A stretch of DNA of 42,897 bases from assembly GCA_013288235.1 (NCBI GenBank), contig JABDCF010000019.1, positions 1 through 42,897 of the forward strand, in the 5' to 3' direction. Source of the DNA: Bacteroidota bacterium (lineage in GTDB: Bacteria > Bacteroidota > Bacteroidia > Sphingobacteriales > Sphingobacteriaceae). Within the stretch, counting starts at the first letter, position 1; the number at the start of each line of letters is the position of its first letter. Below, one piece after another: positions 20,270-36,236 of the stretch. A program made the translations under genes and the position numbers. The notes below the pieces were generated by a model, which searched no databases, was not told the DNA's origin, and worked only from the letters and a program-made list of their open reading frames with translations.

Positions 20270-20277
20270 TAGCTTTG
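20270..20277 (+). promoter_or_regulatory. Bacteroidota -7 element (TAGCTTTG) next to ATG 20285
   Basis: Exact TAnnTTTG match ending 7 bases before the ATG of the membrane protein. As with the genes at 13002, 35256 and 32479, the spacing would give a nearly leaderless mRNA. Confidence 0.45.
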
Positions 20278-20284
20278 GGACTTT

Positions 20285-21328
20285 ATGAGTGAAAACGATC
20301 AGCAAAACAATGATAAACCAGCGAAAAAAAACACAGCCGGTTCAAAGGGGCGTCCTCGAGGTGGGCAAAAACTTTTGGGCGAGGTAAATGCTGCTGATAA
20401 ACCGGAAGAAGAGCTGAAAACAAAAAGACCAAAGCAGAAAGCAGCTTCAGGAATAAATAAAGCATCTAACGAAGTTGCCCATGGATATTCAAAATTCAAA
20501 ATAGAATCCCCGAAATCCGAAACCGACCTCTCAAAATCCGAAATCAAACCGCAGACATCCGAAATCGAACATCCGAAATCCGAAATCCCCATGGAAGTAC
20601 ACCACCATCCCGACCTGGAACATAAGCCGAAGCCCATTAAAGAATACCTGCTGGAGGGTTTTATGATATTTATTGCCGTGATGATGGGCTTTGTGGCTGA
20701 GAATATAAGGGAAGCCATAGATAATAGCGACCAGGCAAAGCACCTTACAGAGCAATTGGTACACGACTTGCGTGCCGATACTGCGCAATTAAACTATATA
20801 AACAGTAACGAAGGCCTGATAGTTAAATATAATGATACTCTATTTAACATGCTACAGCAGCCCATGGCGAAAATAGATACCAGGCATTTACAAAAAATGG
20901 TGGCCAATTCACATAGTATGTGGCTTTTTCACCCGTCGGCGGGCGCAATAGCCGCTATTAAAAATCAGTTGCACCTGAAACAGTTCACCAACTCGGAGCT
21001 GATAAATTATTTTTCGAAGTATGAACGGCACATCGAACTGTTGCACATAGCACAGGATATCAACCTGCAATACCAGCGTACCTACCTCGACCCTTTTACA
21101 ACGCAGCATTTTACGCCTGCAAACCTGGTTGCCGCCTTTGATAATGCTGGCCACCCGACAGCACAAATGCGCAACCTAACCCAGCCTGACCTGGATCAAC
21201 TGGCTACGGATATGGTAATGATCAGGCTTATCACCAGGGAAATGGTGACTGATAACAGGATGGTGAAAGCAGATGCTGTGGACTTGCTGCAATACGTTAA
21301 AAAGCAGTATGGGGTGGATGGGGAGTAG
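20285..21328 (+). CDS. Single-pass membrane protein of unknown function with a repeat-derived segment
   Basis: 347 residues. Residues 1-100 are charged and disordered, and residues about 76-101 (ESPKSETDLSKSEI, then SEIEHPKSEIP) are encoded by a dispersed ATCCGAAATC-type repeat. One transmembrane helix follows (LEGFMIFIAVMMGFVAENI, about residues 122-140). The rest is a helical domain with HLTEQLVHDLRADTAQLNYI and YFSKYERHIELLHIAQDI, probably outside the membrane on the far side. I recall proteins of this layout in Bacteroidota but know no function. Start ATG 20285 is supported by the nearby promoter motif; an ATG at residue 102 (after the repeat) would give a shorter protein with all conserved parts. 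Downstream is a hairpin with T-run. Confidence 0.85.
   Translation: MSENDQQNNDKPAKKNTAGSKGRPRGGQKLLGEVNAADKPEEELKTKRPKQKAASGINKASNEVAHGYSKFKIESPKSETDLSKSEIKPQTSEIEHPKSEIPMEVHHHPDLEHKPKPIKEYLLEGFMIFIAVMMGFVAENIREAIDNSDQAKHLTEQLVHDLRADTAQLNYINSNEGLIVKYNDTLFNMLQQPMAKIDTRHLQKMVANSHSMWLFHPSAGAIAAIKNQLHLKQFTNSELINYFSKYERHIELLHIAQDINLQYQRTYLDPFTTQHFTPANLVAAFDNAGHPTAQMRNLTQPDLDQLATDMVMIRLITREMVTDNRMVKADAVDLLQYVKKQYGVDGE
20511..20587. repeat. ATCCGAAATC-type dispersed repeat inside a coding region
   Basis: Five or more copies of CCGAAATC or CCGAAA occur here, in frame, giving the repeated peptide KSEI. A 19-bp stretch at 20557-20575 (ATCCGAAATCGAACATCCG) occurs again, inverted, at 35088-35106 in the spacer before the PASTA gene. 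The unit also recurs at 35205-35237. Confidence 0.75.
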
Positions 21329-31376: not shown

Positions 31377-31504
31377 GTGAGTGGTTGATTTTAACATTGA
31401 TTTAACATGTCAGTTTTTGACCGCGAACGCTTTAGATTTTTATCATTTTGATAAGAAAAACCCCTAATCGACAACCCACCTAATCAACTCAATCAACCAC
31501 TCAC
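31377..31504. repeat. Inverted pair GTGAGTGGTTGATT with AATCAACC-type repeats
   Basis: GTGAGTGGTTGATT at 31377-31390 has its exact reverse complement at 31491-31504. Around them are short tandem units: TTGGGTT before the first arm and AATCAACC, repeated four times, around and after the second arm up to about 31525, running into the end of the YihY gene. The structure is similar in style to the ATCCGAAATC blocks near ddl. Confidence 0.6.
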
Positions 31505-31516
31505 TTAATCAACCAA

Positions 31517-32479
31517 TCAACCAATTCTCCTGAACGCATTGAACATCGGTTTTACAATTTTGATGTTGCGCTTCGAAAAATCAATACTGGCGTTTAGCTC
31601 AAAGCCTATCAATAATATAAGGCAGTTTAAATACAGCCACAACATCAGTATGATGAGTGTGCCCAATGAGCCGTAAACCTTGTTGTACGATGAGAAATGA
31701 TTGATATAATAATTAAAACCCATCGAAGTAAGCACCGCAAGGCTGGTAGCCATTATAGAACCAGTGCTTAGAAATTTCCATTTTTCTTTATTCGCCGGGC
31801 CGTAGCGGTACAACAGGGAGATGGAGAAAAAAAATATCGCTATCACAATTACCCAGCGTGAAAATCCAATTAAGTAAACCCAGAAATGGCCCTTACGGTC
31901 GATGTGTGATTGTAAATAACTGATGATCGATTCGCTCCCGATCATAACCGTTATAGCCGTTAGCAGCGCAATACTTATCAATATGGTTAGCGCTATAGCT
32001 ATCAGGCGCCTTGTCCACCATTGCCTTTTTTCAACAACCAATGATGACCGGTTAAACGCTCGCATTAAATTGATTATTCCATTTGTAGCAAAATACAGGG
32101 CGGTCACAAAACCCAGGGACAATAATTTAACGTTATGGATCTTTACAATATATTCAATGGTCGATTGGAATGCCATATAGGCGTTATAAGGCAAAACGGT
32201 TGAAAGCAAATTAAGTAACTGTCCCTGGAAATTATGAATGGGTATAAACGGGATAAGTGTAAATAAAAATATTGTTGCCGGGAAAAACGCCAGCATAAAG
32301 TTGAACGCCAACGATGAAGCCCGGTTAAATAAAGTACGCTCCTGTATCTCGTGCGCAAAAAAAGCAGCCACATCGTAAAAGGGGAGTGGGTAAAAACCTG
32401 GTAAAATATAGGTTTTTGACCATGCGATAAACCTGCGGTAAAATTTAAAGCGCAGTAAAAAACGATGCGTCCACTTCAT
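31517..32479 (-). CDS. YihY/virulence factor BrkB family membrane protein
   Basis: 320 residues with about six transmembrane helices. The family pattern is clear: ERTLFNRASSLAFNFMLAFFPATIF, LLSLGFVTALYFATNGIINLMRAFN, then LLYRYGPANKEKW and VYGSLGTLIILMLWLYLNCLILLIGFELNA. The family is inner membrane; its function is not settled despite the RNase BN label in old annotations. It is the last gene of the envelope cluster, 11 bp after the thioesterase, yet it also has its own TAnnTTTG motif that uses the thioesterase stop codon. The final bases before the stop lie within AATCAACC repeats. Confidence 0.93.
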   Translation of the reverse strand: MKWTHRFLLRFKFYRRFIAWSKTYILPGFYPLPFYDVAAFFAHEIQERTLFNRASSLAFNFMLAFFPATIFLFTLIPFIPIHNFQGQLLNLLSTVLPYNAYMAFQSTIEYIVKIHNVKLLSLGFVTALYFATNGIINLMRAFNRSSLVVEKRQWWTRRLIAIALTILISIALLTAITVMIGSESIISYLQSHIDRKGHFWVYLIGFSRWVIVIAIFFFSISLLYRYGPANKEKWKFLSTGSIMATSLAVLTSMGFNYYINHFSSYNKVYGSLGTLIILMLWLYLNCLILLIGFELNASIDFSKRNIKIVKPMFNAFRRIG

Positions 32480-35066: not shown

Positions 35067-35077
35067 GGAATTTTTTA

Positions 35078-35237
35078 TTTCGGAATGCGGATGTTCGATT
35101 TCGGATTTGAAATTATTTCGGAATTGGTTATTTTGGTAGGGGAAGACTTAAAAAAGGATCAGAATAAATAGCGCAAATCAAAAAAGTCTAATTAAACAAT
35201 AAAAAAATCCGAAATCCGAAATCCAATATCCGAAATC
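35078..35237. repeat. Inverted blocks of the ATCCGAAATC repeat between ddl and the PASTA gene
   Basis: The left block (about 35078-35122) carries the unit as GATTTCGGATTT and similar; the right block (35201-35237) carries AAATCCGAAATC three times in the opposite direction. GATTTCGGATTT at 35097-35108 is the exact reverse complement of 35205-35216. Between the blocks are about 80 bp of AT-rich DNA. The blocks directly adjoin both divergent -7 motifs. Confidence 0.7.
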
Positions 35238-35255: not shown

Positions 35256-36236
35256 ATGAGCACCAAAAATATTGCCCTTCTGGCCGGCGGGTTTTCCGGC
35301 GAATATGATGTATCTATCAACAGCGCTGAAAATATTGCCGCCAATTTAAGCGCTGATAAATATAAAGTTTATACCATATTGGTTAACCGTGATCGCTGGT
35401 TTTATGAAGCGGAAAACGACAGCTTTGACGTTGATAAAAATGATTTTAGCCTTACAATGAACGGCGAAAAAGTAAAGTTCGACTTTGCATTCATCACCAT
35501 TCATGGTACACCCGGCGAGGATGGTAAGATGCAGGGCTACCTGGATATGCTGGCCATCCCTTACAATACCTGCGATGCTACTACCTCGGCCATTACTATG
35601 AACAAAGCCTATACCAAAGCTATCGTTGAAAGCATCCATGGCCTGCATACCGCCCGTTCGCTGCGCTTGTTTGAGAGGGATATGCACGATGTTGCCATTA
35701 TTGCGGCAAGCCTAAAGTTTCCGCTTTTTATAAAACCAAATAACGGGGGAAGTAGCGTAGGGATGAGCAAGGTGCATAATGTTGCGGGTTTGCCCGAGGC
35801 TTTACAGCGGGCTTTTAAAGAGGATAACCAAATATTGATTGAGGAATTTATAAAAGGCCGGGAATTTAGTATTGGCGTTGCAAGGCTTCAGGGTAATATA
35901 AAAGTGTTGCCCGCTACCGAGATCATTAGTACAAAAGAGTTTTTTGATTATGAGGCCAAATACTCCCCTGGTATGTCCGAGGAAATAACACCGGCTGATT
36001 TGCCGCAATACAAAATGGAAGAAATTGCCGGAATTGTAACGGAAATTTATCTTCGCCTTAATTGTAAAGGCATGGTACGGGTAGATTTTATTTTACTTAA
36101 AGATACTAATGATTTTTACTTCATCGAGGTGAATACCACACCGGGACAATCGGCTGCCAGCCTAATACCGCAGCAGGTAAGGGCTGCTGGGATGAATTTG
36201 ATGGCGTTTTATGGGGAGTTAATAGAGGGACATTAA
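35256..36236 (+). CDS. ddl: D-alanine--D-alanine ligase
   Basis: About 326 residues from ATG 35256. ATP-grasp enzyme that joins two D-Ala for peptidoglycan precursors, in the cytoplasm. The N-terminal domain begins NIALLAGGFSGEYDVSINSA, the ATP-binding loop is KPNNGGSSVGMSKV, and the active-site end is FIEVNTTPGQSAASLIPQQ. Length and all motifs are normal for Ddl. It is transcribed away from the PASTA-led envelope operon, so the two form a divergent cell-wall locus. Confidence 0.96.
   Translation: MSTKNIALLAGGFSGEYDVSINSAENIAANLSADKYKVYTILVNRDRWFYEAENDSFDVDKNDFSLTMNGEKVKFDFAFITIHGTPGEDGKMQGYLDMLAIPYNTCDATTSAITMNKAYTKAIVESIHGLHTARSLRLFERDMHDVAIIAASLKFPLFIKPNNGGSSVGMSKVHNVAGLPEALQRAFKEDNQILIEEFIKGREFSIGVARLQGNIKVLPATEIISTKEFFDYEAKYSPGMSEEITPADLPQYKMEEIAGIVTEIYLRLNCKGMVRVDFILLKDTNDFYFIEVNTTPGQSAASLIPQQVRAAGMNLMAFYGELIEGH

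Follow-up and report, generated by a model that had tools for sequence, protein, structure and literature searches.

The KSEI-rich segment near the N-terminus of a 347-residue membrane protein, encoded in the stretch of Sphingobacteriaceae DNA analysed in this work (42,897 nucleotides, hereafter the window), very probably derives from a stop-free heptamer element dispersed in the intergenic spacers of Mucilaginibacter-type bacteria, a copy of which has turned into translated DNA. The idea that a noncoding repeat had been captured as a disordered linker was put forward in the initial annotation and is supported by the comparative analysis: the element is mostly intergenic, the tail that harbors it is disordered, and the segment retains the element's own codons. 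The capture also appears to be one case of many and not a peculiarity of this protein. The features on which the analysis relies are the following:

20270..20277, plus strand: TAGCTTTG, 7 bp before the upstream ATG, presumably Bacteroidota -7-like (from the comparison of start contexts).
20285..21328, plus strand: open reading frame of the host gene, a membrane protein of 347 amino acids with a disordered tail (1-102) and a core (103-347) starting MEVHHHP.
20510-20588, plus strand: CCGAAAT heptamer array of about 11 degenerate units (TRF and pattern search), translated as PKSETDLSKSEIKPQTSEIEHPKSEI.
20557..20587, plus strand: last 31 bp of the array, the 31-mer ATCCGAAATCGAACATCCGAAATCCGAAATC, of which exact copies lie between genes on contigs C8 and C205 of the same genome.
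20591..20593, plus strand: internal ATG (Met103), the start codon of the family members without the tail.
35077..35106, minus strand: inverted intergenic heptamer arm holding the 19-bp identity at 35088-35106 (pattern search and TRF).
35205..35237, plus strand: second intergenic arm (TRF), separated by 18 bp from the downstream D-Ala-D-Ala ligase gene at 35256 (gene by Pfam).

The array contains four exact ATCCGAAATC units on the plus strand (20536, 20557, 20571, and 20578) and a one-mismatch unit at 20515, and TRF detects a period of 7 over 20510-20588 and one of 21 over 20534-20587. When up to one mismatch is allowed, the unit occurs 11 times in the window against 2.7 expected, and none of 100 shuffles gets to 11. 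The array is in frame with the open reading frame and gives KSE(T/I) repeats at residues ~76-101; the initial annotation, which had placed the repeat inside a coding region and read it as KSEI, was right in this respect, as it was about the inverted 19-bp identity with the spacer at 35088-35106, which is exact (ATCCGAAATCGAACATCCG), the longest identities in 20 first-order Markov controls being 10-12 bp. It had also been argued that the unit length allows translation without stops. A pure CCGAAAT array is open in all six frames, but 50% of heptamers are likewise, so that a stop-free unit length is ruled out as a special property. Another tandem array, of the AATCAACC type and with period 8/25 (TRF), is present in the window at 31466-31525.

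The genome to which the window belongs is a 4.37 Mb draft (224 contigs, 71% complete), of which 843 kb were sampled (40 stretches plus the window), with genes called by our own simple codon-score script, which is not an annotation. This sample harbors 16 arrays of at least two CCGAAATC units, 15 of them intergenic and one coding, and a single array of the reversed pattern. The AAATC end is the one closer to a gene edge in 14 of the 15 intergenic arrays, at a median of 4 bp vs 130 bp for the other end, and this edge is a stop codon in 13 of them. By BLAST, the window array matches nine intergenic regions of the sampled genome (best E 1.5e-8), and two of the 12 exact 17-mers found in the own genome fall within genes, namely those of the window protein and of EPSP synthase (L011, identified by Pfam with E 8e-85). 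As far as other genomes are concerned, the 24-bp core of the element was retrieved from 77 of the 149 genomes of the genus, in none of which its reversed control occurs, and, in a family-wide draw, from 17 of 251 genomes, all 17 belonging to the window's genus; taking one 24-mer locus per genome, 27 out of 30 are intergenic and three coding. A related 19-mer, AAATCCGAAATCCGAAATC, is found in 59 of 120 genomes of the genus (reversed control: six matches, all in G116). The unit count that had been recommended on a genome-wide scale is therefore that of a dispersed, mostly noncoding repeat, and the element resembles the LSSR-type heptanucleotide repeats both in its tandem 7-bp unit (TRF period 7 and 21) and in its mainly intergenic location (15/16 arrays, 27/30 loci). 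From the excess of intergenic copies we infer that the copying would have proceeded from spacer to gene.

The 31-mer that closes the array recurs exactly in coding position in a paralogue (L059, the same gene as L019/L033), in IspD (L183), and in RadA (L195 and L207, the latter the same gene as L210), and in intergenic position elsewhere (L184, L185, and L187). It is read as KSEIEHPKSEI in the window protein and in RadA and as NPKSNIRNPKS in IspD, and one LeuRS (L113) carries the reverse-strand FRISDFGF plus KSEIENPKSE; by sequence, the EPSP synthase of the own genome, RadA, LeuRS, and IspD thus all contain the element, which is read in several frames and from either strand. Since identical DNA is found both between genes and in unrelated proteins, in different frames, the comparison shows the DNA, and not the peptide, to be the shared unit. 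The codons point in the same direction. In six genes, picked by motif, 130 of 135 same-residue codon pairs are identical within the segment, compared with 167 of 236 over the 33 codons that open the core, and in the family tails (31 genes, several species) SEI is written TCC GAA ATC in 16 of 28 cases and TCC GAA ATH in 25 of 28, while TCCGAAATC is used by none of the 49 SEI found elsewhere among the sampled genes of the own genome; in these sampled genes TCC accounts for 9% of the Ser and ATC for 22% of the Ile codons. Orthologues with KSEI from unrelated codons, which had been indicated as the observation able to overturn the capture, are therefore not what these tails contain. One tail (L050) writes KSEI with TCG and ATT codons, and two others (L043 and L044) keep VIEHP/VTEHP with partly different codons, which suggests that part of the KSEI segment may be old and homologous and not newly captured.

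These data also bear on the idea that the repeat originated at the protein level, that is, through selection for a KSEI-type charged linker, its likeness to spacer DNA being secondary. The stronger period 21 of the window copy (0.72 vs 0.58 for period 7), unlike the 12 pooled intergenic arrays (0.63 vs 0.68), speaks in its favor; however, three other coding copies have no excess of period 21, the exact and irregular 31-mer is common to spacers, the codons TCC/ATC are uncommon, and further proteins carry the same DNA in different frames and on either strand, so that we regard this origin as highly improbable. An array built in place by local slippage, independently of the spacers, would be in agreement with the heptamers of many families present in the own genome and with a proposal reported by MacGregor 2015 (in the portion of the text considered here), according to which 7 nt favor polymerase slippage; it is nonetheless very improbable, given that the irregular unit GAACATC recurs verbatim across unrelated loci and species and that one loop bears different families in different species.

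On the basis of its predicted structure, the host is a helical membrane protein to which no family beyond that is assigned. In the AlphaFold2 model, pLDDT falls below 50 at residues 1-23, 25-39, and 41-97, and the helices of the core lie between 118 and 342; Pfam returned no match at E<=0.1 for the host protein and none for the cores of three relatives, a PDB fold search of the host returned none at E<=0.001 (best 0.08), and no plasmid matched the protein. Matches to it occur in 19 of the 251 genomes of the family, and its relatives include named Mucilaginibacter genomes. The close relatives share a core of ~245 residues that starts with MEVHHHP and leads into a membrane helix; this motif is invariant in all 15 rows of alignment A1 and varied in more distant relatives. 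Upstream of the core Met, 0-5 open codons are present in five members (L020, L021, L040, L023, and L024), 57-107 in most of the others, and 22 and 41 in two. The array is thus embedded in a tail that is disordered and variable in length, upstream of the Met where shorter relatives begin. The comparison of orthologues that had been suggested as a check confirmed that the segment is absent or variable in orthologues and paralogues, several of which start at the Met that follows it, and shows that the array occupies a tail or loop which is disordered in this protein and, in its relatives, either short or empty. Most orthologue tails are devoid of KSEI; hence, a tail can exist without it. The tails of paralogues in G116, G014, and L055 contain CCGAAAT (KSEI), AAGTCNG-type (KSEV/KSES), CTCAC-type (TTHNSPLTT), and CAAACTG-type (LQTANSKLQTE) repeats, as well as the palindrome CCCGATAGCTATCGGG (PDSYRD), of which the own-genome sample has seven intergenic and no coding copies. 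On contig C3 of G116, tandem paralogues of the window protein form a run at ~55-66 kb (L032, L036-L039, and L041), each with a different repeat-rich tail, and several of them overlap the end of their neighbor.

The position of the array immediately upstream of such a Met raises the possibility that the real start is Met103 and that the array is an ordinary, untranslated 5' spacer, open by chance. This would be in agreement with the shorter relatives, which begin there, with the invariance of MEVHHHP in A1, and with the intergenic copies, which often stop a few bp from a gene edge. We consider it improbable. From the most upstream Met, the tails of 16 orthologues have no in-frame stop in 1200 codons, against 51 and 105 stops in the other two frames (1184 codons each, 156/2368 in all), a count that represents support and not an unbiased test, the frame having been picked as the open one. 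Moreover, 11 of the 16 have a TAnnTTTG box, Bacteroidota -7-like and recognized by eye, shortly upstream of the more distal ATG, the upstream Met overlaps the end of the preceding gene in several tandem paralogues, and a start at Met103 gives no account of RadA, LeuRS, FolC, and AroA, where the array is internal. The tail and its array thus seem to be translated. Among six pairs, the dN/dS of the tail is only mildly below 1, which counts against the main explanation: the two closest pairs give 0.42 and 0.56, two more give 0.43 and 0.39, and two are saturated. That of the core is ~0.05 in the two closest pairs. In these closest pairs the silent sites of the tail have diverged less than those of the core (pS 0.26 vs 0.72 for L051/L053 and 0.32 vs 0.49 for L016/L049), whereas in more distant pairs they do not.

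If the segment is a captured spacer element, as we suggest, then such elements might be copied into, or expand through, DNA that is free from selective constraint. Between genes they would fill the spacer up to a stop or start codon, and inside genes they would enter a permissive loop or terminus, the survivors being the in-frame, stop-free copies; captured copies might later decay by substitution or yield to another family. In the window gene the array would mark the point where a fast-evolving N-terminal tail meets the ancestral start Met, and its effect on the protein is most likely near-neutral, i.e., a longer hydrophilic disordered tail before the membrane helix. Either an insertion into an existing tail or an upstream migration of the start codon over the 5' spacer would fit, the two being inseparable because a mere 2-3 bp lie between the end of the array and the ancestral-looking ATG.

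The two intergenic arms at 35077-35106 and 35205-35237 are able to pair (fold z -3.0, with none of 200 shuffles as good), and one LeuRS copy also folds as an inverted pair (z -3.8); the coding array of the window has no fold beyond chance (z +1.0). Among the 24-mer matches listed for the genus, close copies looked by eye to be in (-,+) order. As a rule, inverted pairs are not supported by the own-genome sample, in which the one pair of arrays within 400 bp has both members in the same orientation. As regards the terminal inverted repeats of a MITE-like mobile element, inverted pairs were seen at two examined places, and the majority of the 16 arrays stand alone, no other array of at least two units lying within 400 bp.

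The same or similar spacer repeats occur in the flexible loops of several housekeeping enzymes, on account of which new protein segments seem to have arisen from spacer DNA repeatedly. When the 710 called genes were compared by BLAST with 571 intergenic regions, 14 genes matched, and four of them matched at least two regions: the window gene (nine), FolC (eight), a DinB-like gene (five, a palindrome at the N-terminus), and LeuRS (two). The remaining 10 match one region each, some of these matches being long and resembling duplicated genes and others short and weak; reversed genes gave three with one match each. RadA, LeuRS, FolC, and AroA are housekeeping enzymes, presumably essential, and heptamer arrays of other families and palindromes were found in their loops in many, though not all, of the species read. 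Of the matching genomes, the best 50 of 61 were considered for LeuRS, the best 30 of 60 plus L195 (31 sequences) for RadA, and the best 30 of 61 each for FolC and AroA.

The RadA loop that follows MRAERL is varied and 16-55 residues long in all 31 sequences of the window's genus, vs 10 residues in 30 out of 30 sequences of a related genus (g14) by the same measure. Of these 31 loops, classed by their DNA, 11 carry CCGAAATC, 12 a GC-rich palindrome, and two another heptamer, and six had no assignment. On the RadA tree, the 23 loops with heptamer or palindrome require at least six changes (shuffled mean 8.0; 31 of 300 shuffles as low); the tree is weakly supported, and we therefore claim turnover and no rate. 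RadA had no match in the own genome, perhaps owing to its incomplete assembly. The AroA stretch before GPAGTAMRF spans 36-67 residues in 29 of 30 sequences of the window's genus (L301 was left out, its anchor not being found) vs 28-39 in 30 of g14, and a CCGAAATC unit at no more than one mismatch is present in eight of the 29; a heptamer-like appearance was also noted in some AroA loops of g14, so that the window's genus is not strictly alone in this habit. The LeuRS loop sits in the editing domain (Pfam). In the own genome it contains units of ATTTACG and CTAATCTCC, in L107, L113, and L168 both arms of CCGAAATC, and in other genomes CTCTCC/GGAGAGG palindrome pairs and further heptamers; in the two PDB alignments displayed, the structures have a loop of their own at this site, about six residues shorter. 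Lastly, after FASE/FASD the FolC loop reads KSEVGSQKSEV, VKGERQKAKG, EIQNSKFKIQK, and others in the 30 genomes, some (e.g., L131, L155, L157, and L159) being without an obvious array; several FolC, AroA, and LeuRS loops have no array recognizable by eye.

The closest known precedent is represented by the Rickettsia palindromic elements (RPE; Ogata 2000, 2002, cited in PMC10969869), described in the portion of that source considered here as ~150-bp palindromic sequences inserted in frame and translated. The likeness resides in dispersed repeats lying in frame in unrelated protein-coding genes, here the window protein, AroA, RadA, IspD, and LeuRS, as judged from sequence. However, our element is not a ~150-bp palindrome, being an array of a 7-bp unit, with arms single or in inverted pairs, from a different phylum, and one loop bears different families in different species; because the coding array lacks a palindromic fold beyond chance, we did not file it as an RPE. 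The TAACTGA repeats of Beggiatoaceae, Cyanobacteria, and some Bacteroidetes (PMC4679880, which also cites long simple sequence repeats) are likewise 7-bp units, mostly intergenic, near gene ends, and in some cases within ORFs and translated. Their unit differs from CCGAAAT and has stops in one orientation, whereas CCGAAAT is stop-free in six frames; and their reverse copies are translated, in the part of that paper considered, mostly at protein ends, whereas CCGAAAT is also internal to conserved enzymes. The mitochondria of nematomorphs have coding palindromes (PMC6649704), which are perfect inverted repeats of organelles that are similarly tolerated in coding sequence and gained and lost between species, but the portion of the paper considered does not describe them as copies of intergenic elements. 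Within the titles and abstracts searched (subscription papers and preprints being outside), no such case is described in Bacteroidota; what appears to be new here is heptamer arrays as captured DNA and different repeat families in one loop. The system offers a case in which the passage of noncoding DNA into protein can be counted over a densely sampled phylogeny, the RadA, AroA, FolC, and LeuRS loops being comparable over dozens of species for the rate, source, and cost of spacer uptake; it also cautions against taking N-terminal tails and loops of these genomes for functional domains when they may be captured spacers.

A more general hypothesis, which we advance as doubtful, is that, in this genus, an active copying process overwrites unconstrained DNA with spacer elements up to the constrained edge; one machinery would then fill the loops of essential enzymes as well as the spacers between genes, with families turning over in the loops and the DUF559 nuclease found in the LeuRS of four species as the autonomous form of one of them.

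Some further observations concern the same genomes. The leuS of four genomes of the genus (L160-L163) embeds an in-frame DUF559 nuclease domain, identified by Pfam in L161 (PF04480, E 5e-31) and by similarity in the other three, flanked by a translated palindromic spacer, PHPNPPRKGGL-type ... KVSPTGGDLEGA. In 11 of the 50 LeuRS genomes (L164 and L167-L176; alignment block 847-1003), the segment before KMSKS consists of unrelated sequences of varied length, as if the domain ahead of KMSKS had been swapped. The DinB-like protein (L062:2815-3372) has an N-terminus, KVSPTGGDLEGA, that is the translated copy of the intergenic palindrome GGGGGAGATTTAGAGGGGG, present in five intergenic copies plus this one in the 843 kb, and a polysaccharide flippase (L065:15941-17323) ends with RSEVGSPKSEVESFK, an AAGTCGG-type heptamer array at the C-terminus.
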